Part shown: one piece after another, positions 40,256 to 56,969 of the stretch | Position numbering within the stretch: position 1 is the first letter of the stretch | Layout: each line of letters opens with the position of its first letter | DNA from: Desulfobacterales bacterium | GTDB taxonomy: Bacteria; Desulfobacterota; Desulfobacteria; Desulfobacterales; SURF-7 | Direction of reading: 5' to 3' | DNA length: 64,000 nt | Assembly (NCBI GenBank): GCA_028277765.1 | Contig: JANQFQ010000129.1 | Location: forward strand, 1 to 64,000 | The notes under the pieces: generated by a model | Told to the model about the DNA's origin: nothing | The model's input: only the letters and a program-made list of their open reading frames with translations | Database searches by the model: none | Translations under genes and position numbers: made by a program

Positions 40256-41188
40256 TTATACTTCAGGCCGCGGCAGGACTTTTGCCCTTTCGGCAATTTC
40301 AGGGACCTTATGTTCCCATTCAATCGCCATCATATGAACACCAGCAACGCCTTTCATTTCCTTGAATTCTTCAACCTGTTCGCACGCTATTTTAATACCT
40401 TCTTCAGCAACCTTACCTTTGCCAGCCCCCTGAAGCCGTTTAATCAATTCATCAGGAACATCCATTCCAGGAACTTTGGCTTTCATGTATTTTGCCATAC
40501 CAACACTCTTCATGGGTGTAACGCCCGCCAGGATGTAACATTTTTCCGTAAGACCCATATCATTTGCTTTGCTGATAAATTCGCGGAACCGTTCCATGTT
40601 GTAAATACACTGTGTCTGGATAAAATCCACGCCAGAAGCAATTTTCTTGGCCAGACGGTGTACCCGCCATTCATAAGGATCCGCAAACGGGTTGGACGCG
40701 GCACCAATAAACATTTTAGGTGCACCATGCAGTTCTTCACCGGCCAGGAACTTGCCCTCATCGCGCATTTTCTTTACCATCTGTATGAGCTGCATGGAAT
40801 CAATATCAAACACACCCATGGCTGTAGGATGGTCGCCGAACATAGGGTGGTCGCCTGAAAGGCAGAGCATGTTTCGGACACCGTGCGCGTACGCGCCAAG
40901 AATATCCGCCTGCATGGCAAGACGGTTCCTGTCCCTGCAGACCATCTGAAAATTCGGTTCGATCCCTTCCTGGATTAATATGAGACACGCTGCCCAGCTG
41001 GCCATACGCACAACAGATGTCTGGTTGTCCGTAATGTTAACGGAATCAACATTCCCTTTCAGATACTGGGCTTTTTCCCTTACTTCCTCCGCATCAGCAC
41101 CGCGGGGAGGACCCAGTTCACCTGTAAATGCAAAATGACCGGCCTTCAGTACTTTTTCTAGATTGCTTCCTGATTTCAGATCATCCAT
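40256..41188 (-). CDS. metF: Methylenetetrahydrofolate reductase MetF
   Basis: Reduces 5,10-methylene-THF to 5-methyl-THF, the last methyl-branch reaction of the Wood-Ljungdahl pathway. A 310-residue TIM-barrel flavoprotein: FTGELGPPRGADAEEV with the catalytic Glu, DNQTSVVRM, MLCLSGDH, and FIQTQCIYNMERF. The start at 41188 is chosen because AAGGAAG precedes it; an upstream ATG at 41212 has no such site. It ends the hdrA-mvhD-hdrCB-metV-metF operon. As in acetogens with MetFV, it lacks a recognisable pyridine-nucleotide domain and presumably receives electrons from MetV and the Hdr module. Confidence 0.93.
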   Translation of the reverse strand: MDDLKSGSNLEKVLKAGHFAFTGELGPPRGADAEEVREKAQYLKGNVDSVNITDNQTSVVRMASWAACLILIQEGIEPNFQMVCRDRNRLAMQADILGAYAHGVRNMLCLSGDHPMFGDHPTAMGVFDIDSMQLIQMVKKMRDEGKFLAGEELHGAPKMFIGAASNPFADPYEWRVHRLAKKIASGVDFIQTQCIYNMERFREFISKANDMGLTEKCYILAGVTPMKSVGMAKYMKAKVPGMDVPDELIKRLQGAGKGKVAEEGIKIACEQVEEFKEMKGVAGVHMMAIEWEHKVPEIAERAKVLPRPEV

Positions 41189-41254
41189 ATCTTCTTCCTT
41201 TATGTTGTTCAATTATATTGATATATATTCTCTTACTAGGATAAAAACAAACAA

Positions 41255-41929
41255 CTATGATTCTTCCTTCACTTTTTCATATCCCGGCTGAACAACCGTA
41301 CGCGGTTTCTGATTCTCCCAGTCCTGGGCGGGAACCACCTCAAGGATTTCATCCAGGCGTCCTTGTTTTTCAAGCCTCTCATAGATCTGGTACCACGCGC
41401 ACGGCTGGTCCGCGCTGATCTCGCATTTTCCCTTATTTGTGCCGCCACAGGGACCGTTAAAAACGCCCTTAGCGCACATGGTTACCGGGCATACACCTGC
41501 GGTCATACCGAGCACGCAGCTGCTGCATGAACGACATCTTTCTTCGTACCATCCAACATTCTGGTTGATTCCGATAAAGGTTGTATTCACCGCCGGGTAA
41601 ACCGGTATCTCAGGATACCGCTCGGCCAGGAACTGGATTCCTGCGCCGCAGGCCATGGACAGAAGCGCTTCATAATCCTTTACCATATCATCAAGCGCCT
41701 CCAGGTATTCCCTGTCACACTGCCTTTCAATAGTGATCTTGTCGATCTCGATGGGATTCTCATCCATCTTTCTGGCCATCTCTATCTCGGTTGTCAAGAC
41801 ATCGACTTCTTTTTCTCCGCCAGCCAGGCAGACAGCCACGCAAGTCCCGCATCCAATATTGAGGACCTTTTTGCGTTCCTTGATCATCTCCTTGATTTCA
41901 TCAAACGGTTTTCTTTCGGCAACTATCAT
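41255..41929 (-). CDS. metV: MetV, cysteine-rich partner of MetF
   Basis: A 224-residue protein with the MetV features: CGTCVAVCLAGGEKEVDVL near the N-terminus, the C-rich MetF C-terminal-domain-like segment ERCRSCSSCVLGMTAGVCP, then GPCGGTNKGKCEI. These cysteines bind zinc and/or an Fe-S cluster in MetV of acetogens, where MetV and MetF form the reductase core. It lies 66 nt upstream of metF, with hdrCB on its other side. Binding mode of the metal here is inferred from the family. Confidence 0.9.
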   Translation of the reverse strand: MIVAERKPFDEIKEMIKERKKVLNIGCGTCVAVCLAGGEKEVDVLTTEIEMARKMDENPIEIDKITIERQCDREYLEALDDMVKDYEALLSMACGAGIQFLAERYPEIPVYPAVNTTFIGINQNVGWYEERCRSCSSCVLGMTAGVCPVTMCAKGVFNGPCGGTNKGKCEISADQPCAWYQIYERLEKQGRLDEILEVVPAQDWENQKPRTVVQPGYEKVKEES

Positions 41930-41962: not shown

Positions 41963-43282
41963 TTACATTGCTGTCTCAGGATGAAAAACCCAAACATCCT
42001 TAAGGTCGTCTCCAAGGTATTCACGTTCATTCGGCCCGAGTACGCCAAGAGAAAGGGCCAGGATGGTCCAGAAATGAACAACCGGGTAGTTCCCGCCGTA
42101 ATGCTCACTCAATTCATGTATCTGCGCGTGACAGTTATGACAACCCGCGATACAGTAATCAGCACCCGAGTTCTTAATCTGCTCATCTTTAATCCTGCCG
42201 TATTCGAGGCGCTGTTCTTTCAAGCCTGACTGGAGAAATCCGCCACCCCCGCCGCAACAGTAATTGTTTGACTTGTTCGGCTGCATTTCAACAAAATTCT
42301 CTTCACCAACAACCGCTTTAATGGCGTAGCGGAAATCCTCCGCAATATCATCACCAAAACTTTTTCTTACAATCTGACAGGGATCCTGACAGGTAAACTT
42401 GATGCCGAGATCCTTGTTCCAGTCAGGGTTCGGTTTCAGCTTTCCTTCCCTGATCCATTTGGCGTAATATTCATAGATATTTTTAACATCAAAATTATGC
42501 TCAATTTTGAATTTGTTCAGTCCGGCCCGGACTGCAAAGGTAATGTGACCTCACTCCGTATTCAAATATGTCTTACAGCCGAGCTTCATGGTCTCCGCTG
42601 CCTGGGCACGAACAATATGCTCCCATCCCGCGTTATCCGCTATGAACAGGCAGTAATTTTCACCTGCCCAAGCCTTGCTGCCGTATGTCCAGTCAGCCCC
42701 GGCCAGGTGAAGAATTTTCCATAATGGGACCATTTCATCCGGCTCCGTAACAGGCTCCCTTGAGTTCTGGTTTAAAAAGAATTCCGCGCCTTCCTTATCG
42801 ATGGGCGCCTGCATGTCGGCGAATTCAGGTTGCTCTTCCTGGTACTGTTCGAGCACATCCTCAACTACAAACTTAAAATCTTCCACCGGAGCGCCCATGG
42901 CGCTGAGGGTTTCATTTTCCAGCGCGATGTTGCAGGAGTTTAGCATACCCTTTGGCCGTTCATCCCTGGGTCGCATTGACCTGATATTGAAAATAAGCTG
43001 TGGGATGTCGATTTTCATGGGGCATACACGGACACATCTCTGGCACATGGTACAGCACCACGGCCAGTTTGATGCCAGAATTTCTTCGTCCATTCCGAGT
43101 GCTGCCATCCGCAATAACTTCCTGGGGTCACAGTTTTCCAGGCCAGTAGCCGGGCACCCGGAAGAACAGAGACCACAGGTCAGGCAAAGGTTCAGATTCC
43201 CGCCCTCCGGCAGGATCTCCTTTACCGTCTCTATAATACCGCTTTTTCTTTTACCACTGATTTTCAGTGCTGGTTCCGCCAT
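41963..43282 (-). CDS. HdrC-HdrB-like Fe-S fusion selenoprotein (in-frame UGA)
   Basis: A continuous 439-residue reading frame once TGA at 42551-42553 (codon 244) is read as Sec. The N-terminal HdrC-like part has two [4Fe-4S] motifs (CLTCGLCSSGCP and CCTMCQRCVRVCP). Before and after the TGA the frame reads NTE-U-GHITFAVRAG, matching the ECGH motif of the HdrB/HdrD/DsrK-type CCG families; a complete CCG site follows (C...CCGGGGG...CHNC). If the TGA were a stop, a headless CCG fragment would start at an internal ATG with no RBS. Predicted role: the HdrBC-type electron-transfer subunit that couples MetFV to HdrA. A hairpin lies just downstream of the TGA. Confidence 0.9.
42518..42553 (-). promoter_or_regulatory. 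UGA codon and SECIS-like hairpin in hdrCB
   Basis: On the minus strand TGA is followed after 16 nt by CAGTCC-GGGCC-GGACTG, a perfect 6-bp stem (7 if G/C at the loop base pair). The apical loop begins 23 nt after TGA and starts with G, which meets the bacterial SECIS spacing and loop rule. This is a structural expectation, not a demonstration. Confidence 0.7.
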
Positions 43283-43304: not shown

Positions 43305-43718
43305 TTATTTATTCTTCAATGGATTTGGTCCAAGATTTTTAATATGTTCTGTCATCTCCTTTGCGTATTCCGCGAAGGTCGGGCCCTCTCCTGATGACAG
43401 GTTGTACATCCTGACCCTGTCCCTTTCAATACCAACTTCTTCGAGAATTGTCTGTACATGATTGACACGTTCTTTGCATCTAAGGTTCCCTTCATTATAA
43501 TGACATGAACCTTCAAGGCATCCAACACAGTATACGCCGTCAGCCCCTTTATTAATGGCGCCCAGCATGTGCATGACATCCACTTTCCCGGTACAGGGCA
43601 CCCTGATAATTTTAATATTTGTCGGATAATTCAGTCTCATGGAACCTGCCAGGTCCGCAGCAGAATATCCTCAATATTCACAACAAAAAGATATGATCGT
43701 TGGTTCAAAATCCGCCAT
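43305..43718 (-). CDS. mvhD: MvhD/FlpD-like electron-transfer selenoprotein (in-frame UGA)
   Basis: A 137-residue [2Fe-2S]-type subunit that passes electrons between HdrA and its partner. The full frame starts at 43718 (MADFEPTIISFCCEY) and contains TGA at codon 16 (43671-43673) within CCEY-U-GYSAADLAG, where cysteine is found in relatives (CCNWCSYAGADLAG type). Later motifs: IIRVPCTGKVD, ADGVYCVGCLEGSCHY. Without recoding the product would begin at an ATG after the first cluster ligands. It starts 3 nt after the hdrA stop, so the two are translationally linked. Confidence 0.9.
43641..43673 (-). promoter_or_regulatory. UGA codon and SECIS-like hairpin in mvhD
   Basis: After TGA and 14 nt on the minus strand, GGACCT-GGC-AGGTTCC can form a six-pair stem with one bulged T. 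The loop starts 21 nt after the TGA and begins with GG. This hairpin is weaker than the one in hdrCB and would need testing. Confidence 0.6.
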
Positions 43719-43720
43719 TA

Positions 43721-46700
43721 CTATCCCTCCGCAAGCAAAGCATCTATCTTGCTCATTAATTGATCATCCTCATAATTGCTTAGCTGAATTGTCTGCCGCG
43801 GGCATACGCAGGCGCATACGCCGCACCCATGACAAATCGCCTCGTCAATTTCAATAACCTTTACTTCTGTATTAAACGCCGGGACCTCAAAAGGACACGC
43901 CCGAACACATGTCAGGCACTTCACGCAATGGTCTGTTTCCACCTTGGCTGTGATGGCTGAAAGCTTCAGTGAATCCTGTGATAACATGGTGATGGCACGT
44001 GAAGCAGCTGCCTGTGCCTGAGCGATGGATTCAGAAATCAGTTTCGGCCCATGTGCAGTTCCGCACAGAAAGACTCCATCGCTCGGCATATCCACAGGCC
44101 TGAGTTTTACATGCGCTTCAATAAAATACCCTTCGGGATTCCGATTAAATTTCATTATGCCGCTCAATTCCTCTGTATCCGCGGGCCTAACGCCGGCGCT
44201 AAGGGTCAGAAGATCAGCGGTAATCTCAACATCCTGTTGCAGAACATGGTCTTTTACTGTAACACTGATTCCGTCTGAAGACTTATCCACAACAGGCGGA
44301 TTGTCTGCGTCATAACGGATAAAGATAACCCCGGCTTTTCTTGCTTCCTGGTAGTAATCTTCAAGAAGCCCGTATGTTCTTATATCCCGGTTCAGGATAA
44401 ACACTTGTGTTTCCGGGTTCTGTTTTTTTATAGCCAACGCGTTCTTGACTGCATTCTGGCAGCATATCCGGGAGCATTCCTGCATCTCTTCGCCACGGGA
44501 GCCCACACACTGGATCATGACCACCGTATCAAGGTCGGAAGTGCCCTTGTCTTCAAGCAAATCCCCCAGCTCTACCTGTGTTACGATCCGGTCATCATCA
44601 CCGTACAGGTATTCTGTTGGTTTATATTCCTTCGCGCCTGTGGCAACGATAATTACACCATGGTCAACCGACTGAAAATCTTTTTCCGATCCAACCTCAA
44701 TATTAGTTGTAAAGTTGCCCTTGTATCCCTCAAATGCTGTAAGCCTGGCATCTGTTAGTACCTTCACTTTATCATTGCCTGTAACGTCTTCTTTCAGCTT
44801 ATTGATATACGCCTGGATATCGCCGCCTTCAATGGTATGATGAAGGTTCCTGGCCATACCGCCCAGTTCTTTCTCCTTTTCAACAAGCACAACCTCAAAT
44901 CCCTGGTCTGCAATGCCCAGGGCAGCGTTCATGCCTGCAGGACCGCCGCCGATAACAAGGGCCCGTTTATTAACAGGAATGACTTTCTCTTCAAGGGATT
45001 TCAGAGTGATCGCTCTGGCAACAGCCATGCGAACAAGTTCTTTTGCTTTTTCCGTGGCTTTTTCCGGATCATGGGAATGACTCCAGGAATCCTGGTTCCT
45101 GATATTCGCCATTTCAAAAAGGTACTTGTTCAGACCGCAATCTTCCAGGGTATCCATGAAAATCGGTTCATGTGTCTTGGGGCTGCAGGCAGAGACAACA
45201 ACACGTGTGAGGTTGTTCTCTTTTATCATTGTCTTCATATTTTCCTGAGAGTCCTGGCTGCAAGTAAACAGGTTCTCAGTAGCAAACACGACATTCGGTA
45301 ACGTCTGCGCATAATCCACAAGTTCTTTGACATCAATAATTCCGGCAATATTTACGCCGCAGTTACAGACAAAAACACCAATACGCGGGTCCTGCTCGGA
45401 CACATCTAACTGCTCAGGTTTTTCAACCTTTTTGGTACATGTATCACGACCTTCAGCCAGCTTGCCACCAGCAGCACATGCCGCAGCGCTTGCCTCGGTA
45501 ACAGAACTAGGAATATCCTTGGGTCCCTGGAAAACACCGCTGGTATAAACCCCGGGACGAGATGTTTCCACCGGTGAAAAAGGATCGGTTGCCGCGAACT
45601 TATGCTGATTCAATTCAATGTCAAGCCGTTCTGCCAGTTCAACCGTTGAATCACTTATCTGGAGCCCCACGGAAAGGACGACCATATCAAAAGTCTCATT
45701 CTGGATATTACCGGATTCATCAGCATACCTTATAATAAGATCACGGGTTTCCCGATCTTCTGTTATGGTGTGTACCCGCGCTTTGACAAAACGGACACCG
45801 TCTTTGTCTCTTGCCCGCAGATAATATTTCTCATAATCTTTTCCAAATGTACGGATGTCCATATAAAAAACAGCGCAGTCAAGGTCCTCCCCTGCATGTT
45901 CCTTGGCGATCATTGACTCTTTGACCGCGTAGGTACAGCAGACAGATGAACAGTAGCTGTTGCCGCATTGGTTCTGGTCCCTTGAGCCCACGCACTGGAG
46001 CCAGGCAATCTTTTTCGGTTCTTTTTCATCTGACGGCCTTACCAGGTGTCCCATTGTGGGACCGGACGCACTCAGGATTCTTTCAAACTCAAGACTAGTC
46101 AATACATTGGGATTGGAATTGTAAAGGTAGAATTCATCCAAATTTGAAGGATCGTAAATATTATTCCCGGGGCAAAGGACAACGGATCCTATGTCTATCT
46201 CTTTTTCAACGATCTCTTGACTATGGTCAATGGCGTTTGCCAAGCAGGCGTCTACGCACTGGTAGCACTCACAGCAGTATCCGCAGTTCAGGCATCGGGC
46301 TGCTTCAGACTTTCCGGCACCTTCCTCATATCCTAGTTCAACCTCATTAAAATTGCCTTCACGTTCCTTGACCGGCAACTCCGGCATTTTTGCCCTTGCC
46401 TGTTTTTCTTCATTATCAGGAACCGGCCGGTAAACCGGGTTTTCATTTACAATCGGCTCACGGCCTTCGGCCATGTCTTTTCCTTCAATATAACGGGTAA
46501 TCGATTCTGCGGCCTCCTTACCGGCAGCAATGGCGCCTATGGCTACCCACGGTCCGGTTTGCAGATCACCGCCCGCAAAGACCCCTTCGCATCCTGTGGC
46601 ATAGGTTACAGGATCGACTTCCGTGGTCCCCCATCTTGAAAAATCGATATCAGCGATATCTTCAATAGCCGAAAGATCCGGTCGCTGTCCGATGGCAGGG

Positions 46701-48151
46701 ATAAGCTGATCAATCTCAATATCATACTCGCTGCCGGGAATTGGAACCGGTCTTCTCCTGCCGGAGGAATCCGGTTCACCCAGTTCCATTTTAATACAGC
46801 GAACACCTGTTACCCGGCCGTCTTCCACAAGTATCTCCTGGGGAGCGGCAAGGTATGTGAGCTGTGTACCCTCTGCCTCGGCAGCCAGGATCTCTTCTTC
46901 CCAGGCTGGCATTTCAGCACGTGTTCTCCGGTACAGGATCGTAACCTCTTCTGCGCCCATACGCACCGCTGAACGGGCCACGTCGATGGCCACATTCCCG
47001 CCGCCGATAATCGCTACTTTCTTGCCGACTTCCACGTTTCCGGTCAGGTTTAATTCTCTTAGAAAATCAACTCCCTGGCGGACTCCGTTTGCGTTTTCGC
47101 CCGGAACACCCAGCTCAATCCCCTTATGGGCACCCAGTGCGAGGTAGACAGCCTTGTAGTCTTTTAAAAGGTCCTCAACCGTCATGTCCGGACCAAGCGG
47201 GGTTTCGGTTTTAATCTCAACACCAAGGTTGGTAATAATCTCTATATCCTGATCCAGCACCTCTGGAGGAAGACGATGATCCGGTATGCCTACTCTCAAC
47301 ATGCCGCCTGTCTGCGGGAGGGATTCAAAGATCGTGGACATTATTCCATTTTTTGCCAGTTGATAGGCAGCGGAAAGACCTGCCGGGCCGGAGCCGATAA
47401 TCGCTACTTTTTCATCCCGTTTCTCCGCGCACTCGATCTCAATTTTACGGGGATCAAACTGGTCAGCTGCCAGCCGTTTTAAATCCCTGATCGCCACAGG
47501 ATCGTCTACTTCACATCTCCGGCATGCGTCCTCACAACCATGGGGGCAGATTCTGCCGAGAACCCCGGGTAGGGGGAGATCTTCCATGATGATATCCAGG
47601 GCCTCCTTATATTTGCCCTCTTTAACCATCTGGACATACCCCTGTACATTCAGACCCGCGGGACATGCCAGCCGGCATGGCGCCTTATCTGCTTTCTGGA
47701 TTCCAAAAGCGCCGGGTATTGCCTGGGCATACTGCTTGTAAGTCGCCTTGCGTGTTGAAAGCCCCTCGTCATAGTCACTCGGAAGTTCCACGGGGCAGAC
47801 TTTTTCACAGTCTCCGCAGCTGGTGCATTTAGTAAGATCTATAAAGCGGGGTTGCTGCTGAATTTTTGCTTTAAAATTACCTGGTTCGCCTTCAAGGTTT
47901 AAAAGTTCTGTTCCTGAAAGAAGTTCGATGTTCAGATGCCGGCCGACCTCGACCAGTTTCGGTGAGATAACTCACATGGCACAGTCGTTGGTGGGAAACG
48001 TTTTGTCAATCTGAGACATCAAGCCGCCGATGGCAGGCGACTTTTCAAGAAGATATACATAGTATCCTGAATTTGCAAGATCCAGGGCGGACTGCATACC
48101 TGCAATACCCGCGCCTACGACCATTACTGAGCCTTGGACTTTTTCTGCCAT
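43721..48151 (-). CDS. hdrA: HdrA-type flavin/Fe-S selenoprotein with NADPH-GltD-like insertion (in-frame UGA)
   Basis: A 1476-residue protein starting at ATG 48151 (AGGAG six nt before). HdrA FAD site [10 protein letters not shown] (about 11-20). TGA at codon 60 (47972-47974) in [18 protein letters not shown], the known Cys/Sec site of HdrA. An Fe-S motif [13 protein letters not shown] (about 106-119) follows, then a GltD-like FAD/NAD(P) region ([24 protein letters not shown]), more HdrA sequence ([11 protein letters not shown]), a second HdrA-like FAD site ([13 protein letters not shown]) and two C-terminal ferredoxin motifs ([24 protein letters not shown]). HdrA is the flavin-based bifurcation/confurcation site; here it should link NAD(P)H, ferredoxin and MetFV. 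Three times methanogen HdrA size. TGA as stop would discard the conserved N-terminal site. Confidence 0.93.
47939..47974 (-). promoter_or_regulatory. UGA codon and SECIS-like hairpin in hdrA
   Basis: After TGA and 15 nt, CTGGTC-GAGGTC-GGCCGG can form a 6-bp stem (two G-U pairs) with a six-nt loop containing GGUC, similar to the loop of E. coli fdhF. The loop starts 22 nt after TGA, within the bacterial range. Confidence 0.7.
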
Positions 48152-48480: not shown

Positions 48481-50061
48481 ATGGCTGAAACAAAACCATC
48501 AATAATTAATATCGCTTTTGTAGGAGGCGGTACCGACTGCTTGGAACTTCTTGAAAAAAGCTCCATTGATTACCGGCAGGGTGTAGTTAACTCCCGGATA
48601 ATCGTGATCGCTGATACAGATCCAGAAGCGCCCGCGTTAAAGATGGCGGAAAAAATGGGCATCGCAACGGTAAATGATTTCCATGATATCTATAAATCTG
48701 AATATGACATACATTTTATTTTTATTCTAACCCCTGCAGATGGGATCCTGGAAGAGATCCTCACCACAAAACCGGGTCATATCCGTGTCCTTTCCTATGA
48801 GGCGTTTACCCTTTTCAAAGAGCTTATTGGGATTGAAGAAACCAAGCTGAAAAAAAGAAATGAAGAGATAGAAACCATTTTAAACGGTATTCAGAATTTT
48901 ATTGTAGTTATCAATCCAGATATGGAAATCGTGGAAGTAAATGATGTGTTTCTTGAAAAAATGGAGTACAAACATGATGAAGTGATCGGACAAAAATGTT
49001 ACAAAATATTTTATGACCGTGATCAACCCTGTGTTTCAACAGATACGTTTAAATGTGCCTTAAATGAAGTGATTCGGAACAAAATGCCTTTTCAGCAGAC
49101 CATCATAAGGGATAAACCTAGAGGCAACCCACGTTATGTTGAACTCAGTACGTTTCCTGTCTGGGAAAAATCTGGTAAAATATCCAAATTTGTTGAGATC
49201 AGCCGAGATGTTACACAAAGAAAGCAGGAGGAAGAAGGGATAACCCGGCGCCTTGAAAAAATGGTGGATGAACGGACAAAAGAACTTGAAAATACACACG
49301 AACAGCTGCTTCACCAGGATAAAATGGCCTCCCTGGGTAAACTGTCCGCTACAGTGGTCCATGAGATCAATAATCCGATTACAGGCATTTTAAACCTGAA
49401 CCTGTTAATGAAAAGAATTATTGAAGAAGGGGATGTTGGTGAAAAAGATCTGGAACAGTTCAGCCAATACCTGGAACTCATGGAAACTGAAACCCGCCGA
49501 ATTAGCGGTATTATATCCAACTTACTGACTTTTTCCAGGCAGTCCAAAATAGAACTGAAGCGTATCAGTGTTAACATGTTATTAGAAAAAACACTGCTCT
49601 TGAATTCAAACCTTTTTAAATTAAACAATGTGGATGTTATAAGAAAATTTTATACCCAGATCCCCTCCATCGTCGGATCAGGAGACCAGCTTCAGCAGGT
49701 ATTCATGAACTTTATTTCAAATGCAGTCGAGGCCATGGAACCTAAACAAGGGGGCACACTGCTAGTGGAAACAGATTATTCCAAAGAAGACCAAAAGGTG
49801 ATTGTCAGAATAAAAGATACTGGTGTGGGGATGCCCCGAGAAAATTTAACACGGCTTTTTGAGCCTTTTTTTACAACAAAAACCGATGGTAAAGGTGTAG
49901 GGCTTGGTCTTTCAGTGGCATACGGCATCATAAAAGAACATGGTGGTACGATTTACGTAAATTCAAAAAAGGAAAAAGGAACAACCTTTAAAATAAAATT
50001 GCCCCTTGAATTTTCAAAAAAATCAAATGGATGGCAGGGAGGTATTAATGGGGAGCGTTAA
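48481..50061 (+). CDS. Sensor histidine kinase with Rossmann-like and PAS domains
   Basis: A 526-residue soluble kinase. Residues about 5-110 resemble a dehydrogenase Rossmann fold (AFVGGGTDCLELLE, ADTDPEAPALKMAEKMGI, LTPADGILEEIL), lacking any membrane segment. A PAS domain follows (about 125-240), then HisKA with His294 (VVHEINNPITGI) and HATPase_c motifs (NFISNAVEAM, DTGVGMP, GVGLGLSVAYGI). Divergent from hdrA and overlapping by 14 nt the NtrC-type regulator that is surely its partner. The Rossmann part suggests sensing a nucleotide cofactor or redox state, perhaps NAD(P)H; this is inference. Confidence 0.9.
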   Translation: MAETKPSIINIAFVGGGTDCLELLEKSSIDYRQGVVNSRIIVIADTDPEAPALKMAEKMGIATVNDFHDIYKSEYDIHFIFILTPADGILEEILTTKPGHIRVLSYEAFTLFKELIGIEETKLKKRNEEIETILNGIQNFIVVINPDMEIVEVNDVFLEKMEYKHDEVIGQKCYKIFYDRDQPCVSTDTFKCALNEVIRNKMPFQQTIIRDKPRGNPRYVELSTFPVWEKSGKISKFVEISRDVTQRKQEEEGITRRLEKMVDERTKELENTHEQLLHQDKMASLGKLSATVVHEINNPITGILNLNLLMKRIIEEGDVGEKDLEQFSQYLELMETETRRISGIISNLLTFSRQSKIELKRISVNMLLEKTLLLNSNLFKLNNVDVIRKFYTQIPSIVGSGDQLQQVFMNFISNAVEAMEPKQGGTLLVETDYSKEDQKVIVRIKDTGVGMPRENLTRLFEPFFTTKTDGKGVGLGLSVAYGIIKEHGGTIYVNSKKEKGTTFKIKLPLEFSKKSNGWQGGINGER

Positions 50062-51394
50062 GATTCTAATTGTTGATGACGAACTGATCGTCAGAGAATC
50101 GCTCGGAGGATGGCTGGAAAGAGACGGCCATAGTGTGGATAAAGCGCCCAGCGGAGAAGAAGCCCTGGAGATGTTACAGTCGGTCAAATATGATATTCTT
50201 CTGCTCGATATTAAAATGGGAGGAATGAGCGGGCTTGATGTCTTGAAAAAGGTTAAAGAACAGGATCCAGATATGGTTGTGGTGATGATTACCGCTTACG
50301 GATCAATCCCTTCTTCCATCGAAGCCATGAAAAACGGTGCTTATGATTATCTACTAAAACCGTTTGATCCTGATGAACTCGGGATGCTCATAGAAAAAAT
50401 TATCGATCACCAGGAAAAAATTCGAGAAAACCTTTATCTTAAAGAAAAACACAAAGAACGCGACCGGTTTGAGAGCATGTTGGGCCAGTCCCAGCCTATG
50501 CAAAAAGTCTTTGATATAATTGAAGATATCGCGCCGGTTAATTCAACGGTTCTTATAACCGGTGAAACAGGAACCGGCAAGGGGCTTGCTGCTAAGGCCA
50601 TTCACACTAAAAGTTCCCGCAATGATGGCCCTTTTGTGGTGGTCAACTGCGGCGCCATACCTGAACACCTCATGGAGAGCGAATTGTTCGGTCACCAAAA
50701 AGGCGCCTTTACCGATGCCAAAGAGACAAAAAAGGGGCTTCTTGAGCTGGCACATGGCGGCACGCTCTTTCTTGATGAAATCGGTGAAATCAGTATCAGG
50801 ATGCAGATCGATCTGTTACGGGTACTGGAAGACCGGGTCTTCTACCGGGTCGGAGGCACCCAGCCGATTGAGGTGGATTTCAGGGTTGTCGCCGCTTCAA
50901 ACAGGGATCTCAAAGACGCTATCAAAGAAGGAAGCTTCCGTGAAGACCTTTTTTACCGTCTTAATGTTATCTCTTTTGATATGCCCCCTTTAAGGGAACG
51001 GAAAGAAGATCTTCCTCTTCTGGCTGATTACTTTTTACGAAAATATACCCATGAAACCAACAAACAGGTAAAAAAAATCAGCAGGGATGCCCTTGATGAA
51101 ATGATGCTGTATGAATGGCCAGGGAACGTCCGGGAACTGGAAAATGCCATTGAAAGAGGTGTGGTTATCGCAAAAGGCACTGAAATTGTTACTGAAAACC
51201 TGCCGATTTTTAATCCCGGACAGGTGTCCGTGCCCCCTGCTGCGCAGTCTCTCAAGGAGATGGAAAAACTGCATATTACCCAGGTGCTTATAAACAAGGA
51301 ATGGAACATATCAAAAAGCTCTGAAGTCCTTGGTATTGACCGGTCCACCCTTTACAACAAAATCAAACTCTATAACATCCAGAAGATAGATTGA
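50048..51394 (+). CDS. NtrC-family response regulator
   Basis: A 448-residue regulator: REC (1-120; VDDELIVRES, LLLDIKMGG with the phospho-Asp), sigma-54-type AAA+ domain with Walker A GETGTGKG, Walker B GGTLFLDEIGE and the loop motif GAFTDA instead of the canonical GAFTGA, and a C-terminal Fis helix-turn-helix (SEVLGIDRSTLYNKIKLY). The GAFTGA loop contacts sigma-54; Gly-to-Asp at position 5 could alter but need not abolish it. The start at 50048 follows GGGAGG and overlaps the kinase gene by 14 nt. Confidence 0.92.
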   Translation: MGSVKILIVDDELIVRESLGGWLERDGHSVDKAPSGEEALEMLQSVKYDILLLDIKMGGMSGLDVLKKVKEQDPDMVVVMITAYGSIPSSIEAMKNGAYDYLLKPFDPDELGMLIEKIIDHQEKIRENLYLKEKHKERDRFESMLGQSQPMQKVFDIIEDIAPVNSTVLITGETGTGKGLAAKAIHTKSSRNDGPFVVVNCGAIPEHLMESELFGHQKGAFTDAKETKKGLLELAHGGTLFLDEIGEISIRMQIDLLRVLEDRVFYRVGGTQPIEVDFRVVAASNRDLKDAIKEGSFREDLFYRLNVISFDMPPLRERKEDLPLLADYFLRKYTHETNKQVKKISRDALDEMMLYEWPGNVRELENAIERGVVIAKGTEIVTENLPIFNPGQVSVPPAAQSLKEMEKLHITQVLINKEWNISKSSEVLGIDRSTLYNKIKLYNIQKID

Positions 51395-51948
51395 CAGTTT
51401 CACAGGAACATACTATCGCCATCTCTCCTGTTGGGGATATTGACCAGCACTTGATCAACACTTTAGGGATGGATATTAACCGGGTCTTTGGTGTTAAAAC
51501 CGAAGTGCTTAAGATCATAGATGATCTTGAATTCGCACAGGATCCAGAACGGAATCAGTATCATTCTACTCCCATACTTGAAAAACTGGCATTTTTAGCC
51601 CCCCAGCGGGTAATCAAAGTACTGGCAATTACAAAAGTCGATCTATTCATACCCATTCTTACGTTTGTTTATGGTGAAGCCCAGCTTGGCGGTAGAGCCT
51701 GTATCGTATCCTTAAACCGCCTTCGCGAAAATCTTTCCGCGGTTACACAGCAGAAAATATTTTTTGAACGGGTAATCAAAGAAGCCATACATGAATTAGG
51801 GCATACTTTTAATCTCCGACACTGCAAAGACCATTCATGTATTATGCACTACTGCAGGCGTATAACAGATGTGGACCGGAAGTTGGACAGCATGTGCCGG
51901 TATTGCAAGATCTTTCTGGACGATGATATTAAACAGCTGGTGAAATAA
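51391..51948 (+). CDS. Archaemetzincin-family zinc metalloprotease
   Basis: A 185-residue protein with the archaemetzincin signature HELGHTFNLRHC followed by C-x-M, C and a terminal C-x2-C (the HExxHxxxxxHCx4CMx17CxxC pattern). The first three histidines and Glu form the metzincin site and the cysteines bind a second zinc. TTG start overlaps the regulator's stop codon (TTGA), so it is the third gene of a kinase-regulator-protease operon. Metzincins of this branch have few known substrates; a target linked to the two-component system is possible. Confidence 0.9.
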   Translation: MTVSQEHTIAISPVGDIDQHLINTLGMDINRVFGVKTEVLKIIDDLEFAQDPERNQYHSTPILEKLAFLAPQRVIKVLAITKVDLFIPILTFVYGEAQLGGRACIVSLNRLRENLSAVTQQKIFFERVIKEAIHELGHTFNLRHCKDHSCIMHYCRRITDVDRKLDSMCRYCKIFLDDDIKQLVK

Positions 51949-52371
51949 TTATTTTATGTAGTATCCTGATACTCGCCAAACACCATCCTTGTCCAGCATG
52001 GGAGTAACTGTTTCCACTGCTGATTTCTTGTTTTCAAATGAAGTCTCAAATTGGATGACGACATATTCTCCATCTGGAGCGCCAGGTAAAGCCTTTGCAT
52101 AGGTTTTTGTTTTCACCTTTCTTGAAACAAGTTTACCCAGGGGCTTTCGAACCGCCTGCATCATTTGTTCCCATTGCTGGGCTGAAACTGCATTTCTGAA
52201 TAATTCAGCGTTTTCTTTCCAGCTTTCCGCGTATTGTTCTTTATCAATCATAGCGAGCCATTTTTGGGCGGCTGAAAGAGCAGCGGCTTTTTTTTCCGTT
52301 CTTCCCGCCATGGCAGTAACTCCAGAGACAATTAGTCCAATTATTAACAGATATACTATTTTTCTAATCAT
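51949..52371 (-). CDS. DUF4019-type exported protein
   Basis: A 140-residue protein with signal peptide (MIRKIVYLLIIGLIVSGV, cleavage near AMAG) and a mature region with AAQKWLAMIDKEQYAESWK, QWEQMMQAVRKPLGK and GEYVVIQFETSFENK, the DUF4019 pattern. The function of the family is not known; its fold is predicted to be a small NTF2-like or alpha+beta domain. It converges with the metalloprotease gene with no gap between stop codons. Confidence 0.8.
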   Translation of the reverse strand: MIRKIVYLLIIGLIVSGVTAMAGRTEKKAAALSAAQKWLAMIDKEQYAESWKENAELFRNAVSAQQWEQMMQAVRKPLGKLVSRKVKTKTYAKALPGAPDGEYVVIQFETSFENKKSAVETVTPMLDKDGVWRVSGYYIK

Positions 52372-52492: not shown

Positions 52493-52837
52493 TCATAAAG
52501 ATTTCCTGAGCGCTTCCAGCATCTGCCTGTTCTCAGGACTTAGTCCTAAAAACCTTTCCAGTGTTTCACACCCATATTCATCACAATGGGCACAGGTTTC
52601 CACGCCTTTTTTCTGGCCGCATGTTTTTATCTCGCACATACTGCAATAAAAGAACAGTGGTCCACTGTCTGATTTACAGCCGGCACAGTTTATCTGTTCC
52701 GGCTTAAAGTCCCCATTGAACTTTTTTGACCAGTTGTCGGCAATTTCCTTTCTTTTTGCATCATCGTCGTTCTTTGTGGCAATGTAAGTAAGGCAATTGC
52801 CACATCGAACGCCACAGAAAGCGGTCATTTCTGACAT
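52493..52837 (-). CDS. DUF3795 cysteine-rich protein
   Basis: A 114-residue cytosolic protein with ten cysteines: FCGVRCGNCLTYI at the start, INCAGCKSD, FYCSMCEIKTCG and ETCAHCDEYGC in the middle, matching DUF3795. These cysteines are likely to bind zinc or iron. The family has no assigned biochemical function. It follows no recognisable operon partner; its nearest co-directional neighbour ends at a strong terminator at 52971. Confidence 0.85.
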   Translation of the reverse strand: MSEMTAFCGVRCGNCLTYIATKNDDDAKRKEIADNWSKKFNGDFKPEQINCAGCKSDSGPLFFYCSMCEIKTCGQKKGVETCAHCDEYGCETLERFLGLSPENRQMLEALRKSL

Positions 52838-52970: not shown

Positions 52971-53004
52971 AAAGAGCCGGCGGAACAATTTCCGCCGGCT
53001 CTTT
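52971..53004. terminator. Strong intrinsic terminator
   Basis: AAAGAGCCGGCGGA-acaatt-TCCGCCGGCTCTTT is a perfect 14-bp stem. On the minus strand it is followed by a T-rich run (TTTTTTT), so it ends the minus-strand transcript of the gene with stop at 53023. Confidence 0.92.
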
Positions 53005-53022: not shown

Positions 53023-53967
53023 TTAGTTGTGAAGAAATAGTTTCGTCAGTTTATCCCATTTAAGTTGAGGTATTTTTCCAAAAATATCTTCGGTCAGCAG
53101 GCCTCCGTCAGCTGCCAGAGGACCGGCTTCCTCTTCAATTACATTGTGAAGGCTTCTTACCTCATTTTTAATATACTCACCGGTTTCATTTCCTATCAGC
53201 AGATGTTTAATGTCATCGCGTAAAGAATTGGAATGAATCCGCATGACCCATCCTTCAGTATACGGATCAGTCCCAGCCATCCGGCCGTCTTCCATCAATT
53301 TATGGTTAATTGCCGTGACAACACCGCTGACCGGAGAAAGGACTTCCGCTTTATACTCTCCGCGGTTTATCTTTATACCGCCGACACCCTGGCTGACCTC
53401 CTTGCCTACAAGCGGAGATTCAATCCTGTCCAGGGGACCGAGCAGGCGGAGAGAGAAATCATCCAGCCCCACCCGGACCTCCGAACCTTCCTCAAGTTTC
53501 ATCCATGCGTGTCCCCTGTGGAGATAGTACCCTTGCGGTATTTTAAAACCCTGGACACTAAGAACATCTACCGGTTTTACAACTGCGTGAACCGTATGCT
53601 GGTCATGAAAATACTGGTCAAATTCACAGTCCCCGCAAACATATTCATTAGTGCAGGACCTGAATTCTATCCGTTGTTTCATGTGGTGAATACACGGCCG
53701 TCTTGAAAGCGGCAGATCTTTTAACCGGTCTTTCCAGAAAACCACATGGCTGTTTGCACCCTTGAGGATGTCTCCTCTTTCCCTTCTCTTTCTGTTTTTT
53801 TCAGCGATCCTGCGCATATCAATATCATATGAACAAGGGGCGCATTCATAGTCACTGTCGCAGACCTTTTCTTGAACCACCCCTGCTTGGGTCCAGAGAC
53901 AAAGAAGATCTTGTGCTTCATTAATATCTTTTATGCGGTTTGGTTCCATTTCGCTTACCCTTATCAA
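53023..53967 (-). CDS. Cys-rich GcvH-like protein, paralogue 2
   Basis: A 314-residue protein. The N-terminal half carries two C-x12-C-x5-C-x2-C modules (starting LCLWTQAGVV and PCIHHMKQRI), each followed by YD or FD. The C-terminal half (about 145-280) has the GcvH fold (HRGHAWMKLEEGSEVRVGLDDF, LSPVSGVVTAIN, DPYTEGWVMRI), but the residue eight positions before the Pro of SPVSG, where GcvH has its lipoyl lysine, is Glu. It is therefore probably not lipoylated. 20 nt downstream of a paralogue (53988), in one operon, with a terminator behind it. Function unknown; likely a metal or Fe-S binding signalling or carrier protein. Confidence 0.8.
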   Translation of the reverse strand: MIRVSEMEPNRIKDINEAQDLLCLWTQAGVVQEKVCDSDYECAPCSYDIDMRRIAEKNRKRRERGDILKGANSHVVFWKDRLKDLPLSRRPCIHHMKQRIEFRSCTNEYVCGDCEFDQYFHDQHTVHAVVKPVDVLSVQGFKIPQGYYLHRGHAWMKLEEGSEVRVGLDDFSLRLLGPLDRIESPLVGKEVSQGVGGIKINRGEYKAEVLSPVSGVVTAINHKLMEDGRMAGTDPYTEGWVMRIHSNSLRDDIKHLLIGNETGEYIKNEVRSLHNVIEEEAGPLAADGGLLTEDIFGKIPQLKWDKLTKLFLHN

Positions 53968-53987
53968 TATGCAGTGTTATTATACGA

Positions 53988-54977
53988 TTATGATCTGAGA
54001 AAACGTTTGGTCAGGTTGTCCCAACCCAGGTCCGGCAGATTGCCGTAAATATCCGTTGTCAGAAGACCGCCGTCTGTTGCCATGGGGCCGGCTACTTCTT
54101 CGATCATATTTTCAAGGCCTGATACTTCATGGTTCATCCATTCCAGGCTGCTTGAATTGGTCATCAGTGTTTTTACGGTTTTCTTGATATCAGGGGTGCG
54201 TACTATGAAAAGCCATCCATCACTGTAAGGTTCATTGTTTGCAATTTTCGGATTTTCCCTTACTTTTGAATTCACTTCCATAATTACCCCGTTAACAGGT
54301 GAGAGGACATCAGCCAGGTTGTCTTTCCGTTTCAGGCCCCAGCCGGCTTTGCCCTGGTCGAGTTCCTTGCCCATGAGGGGAAGGTCAAACGCGTCTGCTT
54401 CACCTAGAAGTTTGAGGGCAAAATCATCCAGTCCGATTCTGATGTATCCGCCGCTCTCTATCCGGGCCCAGGTATGGCCGTCATGGAAGTGATATTTCAT
54501 AGGTACGTCAAATCCTTTTACATTTTCTATCTCAACTGGTATCGTCCTGGTTTTCGTAGACATGACATCTTCAAAAAGCTGATCAAAGTCACATGTGCCG
54601 CACTCATAGTCATAAGCGCATGAGCGGTTGTCAATCCGGTTGGTAAGGCTGTGTCGGCAAATCCTGTCCAAAGCCGGCCTTGCTTTCAATGCATCCTGCC
54701 AGCTGATATGCTTCCCTTTTTCAACCTGTTTCACCATACCAGCATCGTATTTACAGGTAGTACAGTCATAAAAATTATTACAGCTTTTATTTGCCACAAC
54801 ACCAGCCTGCATCCAAATGCATGGATTAGCGGCTTTTGCCTCCTTATCCGGTTTTATCATCCAGACCTGTCCACCTAAAACAGTTCCGATACCGCCTTTA
54901 TCAAGCTGTCCGCCCTTTGTGTAGTTTGAACCAAATCCAACCCTGCTTCTGCGATCATCTTTCATTTTCTCAGCCAT
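53988..54977 (-). CDS. Cys-rich GcvH-like protein, paralogue 1
   Basis: A 329-residue protein with the same layout as its downstream paralogue: a basic N-terminal tail, two C-x12-C-x5-C-x2-C modules (PCIWMQAGVVANKSC..., ICRHSLTNRIDNRSC...), then a GcvH-like domain (HDGHTWARIESGGYIRIGLDDF; DVLSPVNGVIMEVN; EPYSDGWLFIV). The lipoyl-lysine position is Asp in ADVLSPVNG context. First gene of the operon driven by the sigma-54 promoter at 55046. The strong conservation of cysteine spacing in all four modules argues for a functional metal site. Confidence 0.8.
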   Translation of the reverse strand: MAEKMKDDRRSRVGFGSNYTKGGQLDKGGIGTVLGGQVWMIKPDKEAKAANPCIWMQAGVVANKSCNNFYDCTTCKYDAGMVKQVEKGKHISWQDALKARPALDRICRHSLTNRIDNRSCAYDYECGTCDFDQLFEDVMSTKTRTIPVEIENVKGFDVPMKYHFHDGHTWARIESGGYIRIGLDDFALKLLGEADAFDLPLMGKELDQGKAGWGLKRKDNLADVLSPVNGVIMEVNSKVRENPKIANNEPYSDGWLFIVRTPDIKKTVKTLMTNSSSLEWMNHEVSGLENMIEEVAGPMATDGGLLTTDIYGNLPDLGWDNLTKRFLRS

Positions 54978-55045: not shown

Positions 55046-55061
55046 TGCAACGCAGATGCCA
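55046..55061 (-). promoter_or_regulatory. Sigma-54 (RpoN) promoter
   Basis: On the minus strand TGGCATCTGCGTTGCA carries the -24 GG and -12 GC with exact consensus spacing (TGGCAC-N5-TTGCW). It lies about 70 nt upstream of the paralogue 1 start codon. It fits the presence of a GAFSGA-type activator next door. Confidence 0.8.
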
Positions 55062-55156: not shown

Positions 55157-55183
55157 TGTTGTGTTGGATTGTCCAACACAACA
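55157..55183. promoter_or_regulatory. 12-bp inverted repeat, probable activator operator
   Basis: TGTTGTGTTGGA-TTG-TCCAACACAACA is a perfect 12-bp dyad with a 3-nt spacer. It lies about 100 nt upstream of the sigma-54 -24 box, a usual position for an enhancer site. Related half-sites (ATCCAACGCA and TTCCAACACA) occur further upstream. Confidence 0.75.
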
Positions 55184-55418: not shown

Positions 55419-56969
55419 TTATTTGTTTTTAATTCCGAGCCGTTTGATCCTAGAATCAAAGGTTGAACGGTTTAACTTGGCATCCTTTGCAGCGTTGGTA
55501 ACATTCCAGTTGTTTTTCTTAAGCAGGTAAAGTGCGTAACCTCTTTCAACCTCTTCCCAGGAAAGATCAGTGAACTGAATGTTTTCAGTTTCCCGGAGTT
55601 CTAACTGATCCGCAGACACTTCCCTGTCCTCGAACATACGGGTGGTCTCGGGAAATGATTTTTCCGTCCTCTCCTGATTGAAAGGGATATCTTGCAGTTC
55701 GATGTAGTCACTGTCGGTTGAAACCAGCAGGTATCGCACGAGATTTTCAAGCTCCCGAATATTTCCGGGCCAGTGGTAAGAGAGGAGAAACTGCATGGCA
55801 TCTGAGCGGATCGATTTTATATCGATCTCGAGCTTTACTGATTCTCTTTTAATAAAATGATTAAAAAGCAGGGGGATATCCTCTTTTCTTTCCCTTAAAG
55901 GGGGGAGATGCAGGGGAAGGACAGAAAGCCTATAAAAAAGATCCTGCCTAAATTCGTTGTCCGCGACCATATTTTTAATATTGCGGTTCGTGGCCGATAT
56001 AACTCTTATGTTAATATTCTTAATCCGTGTATCTCCGAGCGGCTTGATCTCCATGTTCTGGATCACCCGTAATATTCCCGCCTGCAGATTGATCGGCATG
56101 TCACCGATTTCATCCAGAAAAACGGTCCCACCGTGAGCTGCCTCAAAAAGCCCTGGCTTGTCCTTTGACGCACCGGAAAACGCACCTTTTTTATAGCCGA
56201 AAAGTTCGCTTTCTAGCAGAGATTCCGGTATGGTACTGCAGTTTTGTACCAGGAAGGGATTCTCTTTCCTGTCGCTCAATTTATGGATCTTATTGGAAAC
56301 CAGCTCCTTGCCTGTTCCGCTTTCACCTGTAATCAGTACGGGAAAGTCTGTTTTGGCGTAACTTTCAGCCAGCTCAAGGCTCTTTTTTAAAGCCGCGCAC
56401 TGGCCGACAATGACCTCCTCTTCCTGGATTCTGTTCAGGGTATCCCTTAAGTTTTGAGTCTCTTTCAGCTGTTTGCTATACAATACCGCGTTGCCTAGAG
56501 CTATCGATCCGATATTAATAAGGTCCTGAAGGTAGCTTAGATACTCTTCGTCAAGATTCAAACGGCTTTTTTCAGGATCTGTATCGATTACTTGGACAGC
56601 CCCATATACCTCTTTGCTCCTAAGAAAAAGAGGGAAGCATAAAATCAGACTGCTCTTCACCGCGAGTTTCTCTTCAAGTTCCTTGTAATGGCGGGCATCA
56701 GTCTTCGGCTCAGCCATGGTCATTTTACCGTTTTCAATTACCCATCCCACAATACTTTTATGATCAGCGCTAATGCTAACCCCTTTAATATTTTCGCCAT
56801 AGCGCCCAACAGCCTCTATGCAGAGGTATCGATCATCTTTTTTTATCCATATAGAGCCGCGCTCAACTTTTTGAAGCTTAAGCAGAGACTTAAGAAATTT
56901 ACGCTGAAGCCTATCTGGATCAAGCTCTTCTGAAAAAGATTTAAATAGATTTACAGCTGATTCAAACAT
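55419..56969 (-). CDS. GAF-domain sigma-54-dependent transcription activator
   Basis: A 516-residue activator: N-terminal GAF sensor (about 20-165; GSIWIKKDDRYLCIEAVG, SADHKSIVGWVIENG), AAA+ domain with Walker A GESGTGKE, GAFSGA loop (a tolerated variant of GAFTGA), Walker B GGTVFLDEIGD, then a Fis-type helix-turn-helix (AAKDAKLNRSTFDSRIKRLGIK). The GAF domain may bind a small molecule or Fe. It should activate the divergent-neighbour GcvH-like operon from the palindrome at 55157. GAF-less truncation is not seen. Confidence 0.92.
   Translation of the reverse strand: MFESAVNLFKSFSEELDPDRLQRKFLKSLLKLQKVERGSIWIKKDDRYLCIEAVGRYGENIKGVSISADHKSIVGWVIENGKMTMAEPKTDARHYKELEEKLAVKSSLILCFPLFLRSKEVYGAVQVIDTDPEKSRLNLDEEYLSYLQDLINIGSIALGNAVLYSKQLKETQNLRDTLNRIQEEEVIVGQCAALKKSLELAESYAKTDFPVLITGESGTGKELVSNKIHKLSDRKENPFLVQNCSTIPESLLESELFGYKKGAFSGASKDKPGLFEAAHGGTVFLDEIGDMPINLQAGILRVIQNMEIKPLGDTRIKNINIRVISATNRNIKNMVADNEFRQDLFYRLSVLPLHLPPLRERKEDIPLLFNHFIKRESVKLEIDIKSIRSDAMQFLLSYHWPGNIRELENLVRYLLVSTDSDYIELQDIPFNQERTEKSFPETTRMFEDREVSADQLELRETENIQFTDLSWEEVERGYALYLLKKNNWNVTNAAKDAKLNRSTFDSRIKRLGIKNK

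Follow-up and report, generated by a model that had tools for sequence, protein, structure and literature searches.

Among described systems, the closest analogue of the two proteins considered here, A and B, is LbpA of sHdr sulfur oxidation, a GcvH-like protein that is genetically tied to Hdr-type complexes and yet lipoylated; LbpA keeps the lipoylated lysine and mostly two conserved cysteines, whereas the family of A and B has no conserved lysine and eight conserved cysteines (PMC6067878). With GcvH itself (PF01597, TIGR00527), A and B share the fold and the core motifs (HxW, GxxD and the P-x-x-G hairpin region), but they lack the lipoyl lysine, carry added cysteine modules and a C-terminal extension, and have no gcvT or gcvP partners. 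A gcvH gene also occurs beside metVF in acetogens, where a role for it has been discussed and judged unlikely (PMC8760232). The NCBIfam model for a GcvH-related protein (NF045810), whose name points to sulfate reducers, describes proteins that are GcvH-like as A and B are, but the two score 26-32 bits with it, and its cut-off is 150. Archaemetzincins (PF07998, NF033823) have been studied in the cited literature as stand-alone proteases; the one encoded next to A and B (M54) shares their catalytic and Cys4 motif, but its gene belongs to a conserved quartet. Bacterial relatives of the archaemetzincins can be regulatory, as CarG of Myxococcus illustrates (PMC3427221). The Hmc complex is resembled, below cut-off, by subunits that are encoded with GcvH-like proteins at distant loci, but HmcB and HmcC are absent beside the pair A-B. 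HdrL, finally, has been described from Desulfobacterium autotrophicum (PMC2702500).

The 64,000-nucleotide stretch of DNA analysed here (the window) comes from an anaerobic, sulfate-reducer-like bacterium, and its genes A and B appear to form an operon, preceded by a putative sigma-54 promoter and enhancer (Table 1). Past the GcvH domain, both proteins continue into a conserved extension (DGG...DIYG...GW), a further mark of the family. The open reading frame listed for B (53023-53967, minus strand) gives 314 residues from a TTG at 53967; the start is probably the ATG at 53949 instead, since a purine-rich stretch precedes this codon and the resulting 308 residues are the length of many B orthologues. 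The TTG start listed for the response regulator is also probably too early. A DUF3795 Cys-rich protein (52493-52837) and a DUF4019 protein (51949-52371), both on the minus strand, sit between the two halves of the quartet and are without clustered relatives at other loci.

Table 1. Coordinates of the features of the locus within the window.
Feature	Position	Strand	Remarks
MetF-type methylenetetrahydrofolate reductase	40256..41212	-	
MetV-like ORF	41255-41929		upstream of MetF; recognised by eye, no NCBIfam match
HdrC/HmcF-like iron-sulfur protein	42551..43282	-	
MvhD/VhuD-like subunit	43305..43640	-	
HdrL-type HdrA/glutamate-synthase-like fusion	43721..48151	-	in-frame TGA
PAS histidine kinase	48481..50061	+	N-terminal about 120 aa Rossmann-like by eye
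Sigma-54 response regulator	50006..51394	+	candidate activator of A-B
Archaemetzincin (M54) metallopeptidase	51391..51948	+	intact HExxH...HCx4CxM...CxxC motif
Terminator-like inverted repeat	52971..53004	-	perfect, 15 bp, with T run; just past the B stop codon
Protein B	53023..53949	-	same architecture as A; Glu at the lipoyl Lys position
B GcvH-fold domain	53164..53520	-	
B Cys module 2	53626..53694	-	residues 92-114, numbered from TTG
B Cys module 1	53833..53901	-	residues 23-45, numbered from TTG
Protein A	53988..54977	-	329 aa; two Cys4 modules, GcvH-fold domain, C-terminal DGG...DIYG...GW..L...FL extension
A GcvH-fold domain	54135..54488	-	Asp219 at the lipoyl Lys position
A Cys module 2	54591..54659	-	C107, C120, C126, C129; residues 107-129
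A Cys module 1	54753..54821	-	C53, C66, C72, C75; residues 53-75
Sigma-54 (-24/-12) promoter-like site TGGCATCTGCGTTGCA	55046..55061	-	84 bp upstream of A
Palindromic enhancer-like site TGTTGTGTTGGACAATCCAACACAACA	55157..55183	-	core TGTTG-N7-CAACA at 55162-55178

Pfam GCV_H matches A with 76 bits and B with 63 bits (cut-off 22.2), and the AlphaFold2 model of A, built from 84 family sequences (pLDDT 85), is predicted with the GcvH fold: Foldseek superimposes it on solved H-proteins with TM-scores, by target length, of 0.82-0.92 in 21 of 22 significant matches and of 0.73 in the remaining one. The fold signature that an earlier note had read from the DNA is borne out by both results, the second of them the kind of structure prediction it had suggested, except that the HxWxR it quoted reads HxWxK in B. 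The same note had found Glu or Asp in place of the lipoyl lysine. This column indeed holds Asp219 in A and Glu in B, as well as Asn in a third paralogue (contig C1); lysine is replaced in 79 of the 84 relatives and occupies the position in only 5, while the Arg two residues before it is conserved in 79. One residue ahead of the canonical position, 21 of 30 A-type proteins have a lysine (Lys218 in A); in B-type and solo paralogues no conserved lysine was found in the hairpin. Neither protein reaches the cut-off of the GcvH equivalog TIGR00527 (76.8 bits for A and 56.2 for B, against 115.85). The true gcvH of the genome is flanked by gcvT and gcvP and lies on a different contig (C96), and no relative of gcvT or gcvP was found in the neighborhoods of the family loci tested.

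The cysteine modules are as regular as the earlier note had described them: all four in A and B have exactly the spacing C-x12-C-x5-C-x2-C, followed by x-[YF]-D. Its proposal to look for the module in other genomes yields 160 modules with exact spacing in the 84 relatives, next to 7 with one extra residue (x13). Of the eight cysteines, seven occur in every one of these relatives and the other in 83 of 84, a degree of conservation that is not chance. The same spacing occurs in the single-module GcvH-like proteins of distant clusters (L104, L105, L217), and the Desulfobacterales proteins may have gained their second module later, by duplication. Modeled alone, the cysteine region is predicted confidently (pLDDT 89); Foldseek found no match to this model in the PDB at E-values up to 10, the profile of the region found none among PDB sequences, and no Pfam or NCBIfam family covers the modules of A or B. 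The search for a known metal-site family returned weak matches to the zf-CHY profile of Pfam, in 58 of the 84 members (best E 5e-4), and was otherwise empty. The family, referred to here as Cys-GcvH, thus combines a GcvH fold that is already known with a module whose modeled fold is absent from the PDB; a role in metal binding or redox chemistry is plausible, as predicted from the invariant Cys4 modules and from the Hdr and Hmc fusions and operons described below.

The partners of A and B are a histidine kinase, a sigma-54 response regulator and the archaemetzincin. The N-terminal region of the kinase, about 120 residues long, matches nothing in Pfam or among PDB sequences. Among 62 non-redundant loci, many of them on truncated contigs, M54 occurs within 6 kb in 41, the response regulator in 42, and the full set of kinase, regulator and M54 in 34. 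Of 297 genomes sampled from the phylum, 67 are family-positive at E <= 1e-25; 64 of these contain M54, compared with 46 of the 230 others (Fisher p 6e-31, with genomes treated as unrelated), and in 58 of the 64 genomes with both, M54 lies within 10 kb of a family gene. This linkage is not a general property of M54: among 20 M54 loci taken from genomes that lack a strong family match, 18 have no GcvH-like neighbor, and the remaining 2 are of the same cluster type as the family loci. The motif HExxH...HCx4CxM...CxxC is intact at 35 of 35 loci (allowing a spacing of 14-20 before the last CxxC), and the M54 of the window passes the NCBIfam model NF033823 (154.2, cut-off 145). The quartet of Cys-GcvH, kinase, regulator and M54 seems largely inherited as a unit, because the distances of the regulator and of M54 track those of the Cys-GcvH proteins (Mantel r 0.71 for each, and 0.95 between regulator and M54; permutation p 0.0005) and because paralogous quartets stay separate: where a genome has two of them, as four genomes do, each clusters with quartets of its own type from other species. 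The present genome also holds a second complete quartet (G000:C1:22566-25916; loci L003 and L035), of a separate paralogous type; it has the sigma-54 site, and the TGNNG-N7-CNNCA enhancer is absent.

Co-occurrence with a sigma-54 activator, which the earlier note had proposed to check, depends on which activator is meant. The response regulator (about 50006-51394) is conserved, the closest regulators from other A-type loci being 70-74% identical to it, and adjacency and co-inheritance make it the likely activator of A-B. The GAF/sigma-54 activator directly upstream of A-B (55419-56969, minus strand) was set aside as a conserved regulator, having no full-length relative at the other loci examined; it may be a species-specific extra.

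The control region of A-B has, as judged from sequence, the features of a sigma-54-dependent operon, a -24/-12 promoter and an upstream enhancer. With a scoring cut-off of the analyst's own choice, a -24/-12 site precedes 39 of the 58 family genes that stand first or alone at their loci. At this cut-off it appears in 0.5% of sequences from Markov shuffling, before 0 of 30 genes in second tandem position and before 1.3% of 527 further genes from these loci. The enhancer-like palindrome TGNNG-N7-CNNCA, often paired with sites about 90 bp apart, lies no more than 450 bp ahead of the gene for 38 of 57 first genes. Because the regions that suggested its consensus are also those used for the count, shuffled sequences (2.9%), second genes (0 of 30) and a genome-wide search serve as controls. 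In this last, a pattern search, the composite of enhancer and promoter has a single match in the 4.9-Mb genome, which lies ahead of A; across 59 genomes it has 17 matches, 12 of them directly before A orthologues, and the reversed control pattern has 1. An enhancer with a single target makes the regulation directly testable. At the other end of the operon, the terminator-like repeat was read from the sequence and is absent from the scan's list; an Rfam search of the region gave sub-threshold matches only, mostly over this hairpin.

On its other side, the quartet of the window adjoins genes for MetF, a MetV-like protein, an HdrC/HmcF-like protein, MvhD and HdrL. The HdrL frame contains a TGA at about 47972-47974 (NDCAM-U-VISP); reading it as selenocysteine extends the protein to the ATG at 48151 and to 1476 residues, and this codon is a probable selenocysteine. 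A short hairpin follows it on the 3' side (-13.6 kcal/mol), for which no SECIS family match was found. Elsewhere in the phylum the GcvH-like domain is fused to such subunits: to an HdrC-like domain at L165, with HdrA and an HdrB-like protein as neighbors (HdrB by eye), and to an HdrA/MvhD-like protein at L169 and L171, the latter neighbored by MetF-, MetV- and HdrA-like genes (MetV and MetF by eye). The distant clusters L104, L105 and L217 combine membrane-anchored and single-module GcvH-like proteins with an iron-sulfur protein, a protein of NrfD type, a kinase carrying CxxCH-type motifs, a response regulator and M54; at L104 and L105 the best NCBIfam matches of the iron-sulfur and NrfD-type proteins are HmcB and HmcC, below cut-off (325/420 and 424/550). 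As open reading frames in GC-rich loci were called naively, some neighbor descriptions (L173-L184) are incomplete. At one further locus (L166:5512-9802), three GcvH-like genes stand in a row beside those of a helical protein and of what looks by eye like a sulfide:quinone-reductase-like flavoprotein; M54, regulator and kinase lie upstream. In a MAG of candidate division WOR-3 (L102), a two-module Cys-GcvH protein lies directly ahead of a NuoL/MrpD-like membrane protein (by eye), a possible further link to a redox complex.

What A and B do is best read from these associations together. Their Pfam match could make them ordinary paralogues of the glycine cleavage H-protein, but this explanation is practically eliminated: their scores fall far below the equivalog cut-offs, and a part in glycine cleavage is ruled out because the lipoyl lysine is missing, no gcvT or gcvP lies nearby and a separate gcvTHP set exists, in agreement with the earlier note, which had seen in them a reused H-protein scaffold. 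A one-residue shift of the lysine abolishes lipoylation in E2 lipoyl domains. This bears on a carrier whose lipoate would sit on a displaced lysine (Lys218 in A) and which would work as LbpA does in the sulfur-oxidizing sHdr pathway, for which the lysine at -1 in A-type proteins and the tie of LbpA to Hdr-like complexes could be cited (PMC6067878); as the canonical lysine is kept in all LbpA (PMC6067878) and the B-type and solo paralogues have no such residue to offer, it is highly improbable. Less far-fetched, but still improbable, are proteins that store or traffic zinc or another metal, for example to supply the metallopeptidase or metalloenzymes, with the H-fold as a structural platform only. 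Eight conserved cysteines per protein, the zf-CHY matches and the adjacent zinc peptidase would fit; the HdrC/HdrA-type fusions and the HmcBC-like operons would be left unexplained.

The reading given about an even chance is that A and B are lipoate-free H-fold proteins that act as accessory or electron-carrier partners of Hdr/Hmc-type complexes and that bind a metal, Zn or Fe-S, through the paired Cys4 modules. It takes in the fold, the loss of the lysine, the Cys4 modules, the sigma-54 and enhancer sites, the co-inheritance of kinase, regulator and M54, the Hdr fusions and the HmcBC-like operons, and is the most economical account, although we infer the biochemical role from associations between genes; against it count that A and B of the window are not themselves fused to an Hdr subunit, and that HdrL-like genes lie near only 22 of the 62 family loci. 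The main rival is a signaling or stress cassette, in which the Cys-GcvH proteins would sense redox state or a metal, as outputs of kinase and regulator or as their feedback partners, M54 would act as protease or regulatory partner, and no electrons would be transferred directly. The constant partners, being kinase, sigma-54 regulator and M54, suit such a role equally well; A-B is the only composite enhancer/promoter target in the genome, and CarG, a bacterial archaemetzincin homologue, is a component of a transcription regulator (PMC3427221). The fusions to Hdr-type subunits and the HmcBC-like neighbors speak against it, as does the active-site motif of M54, which is intact throughout, unlike that of CarG, and we consider it rather unlikely. 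Within the reading of A and B as partners of Hdr/Hmc-type complexes, the kinase would sense a redox or energy cue, the regulator would bind the TGTTG-N7-CAACA site and switch on A-B, A and B would dock by their H-fold on an Hdr-type complex, with Zn or Fe-S predicted in their Cys4 modules, and the archaemetzincin would mature or turn over one of the partners. That all of this holds jointly is a tentative proposal with a less than even chance: lipoate-free H-fold carriers, their Cys4 a new metal-binding module, would serve Hdr/Hmc complexes under a dedicated sigma-54 two-component system with A-B as essentially its sole target operon, M54 would act on the carriers, and the whole would be a system of redox control not described before.

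In the open-access literature no description of the Cys-GcvH family was found, most subscription papers lying outside the scope of that search. The quartet with kinase, response regulator and archaemetzincin, the sigma-54 promoter with its enhancer, and the Hdr/Hmc links are new relative to the earlier note, and the genes of A and B with their regulators and metalloprotease point to an undescribed redox-related system rather than to glycine breakdown. If this is true, it would explain the extra 'glycine cleavage H proteins' that occur without cleavage enzymes in sulfate reducers and their relatives; it would give the bacterial archaemetzincins a defined genetic context; and it would provide a candidate protein carrier or adaptor for Hdr/Hmc-type energy conservation, whose physiological partners are often unknown.
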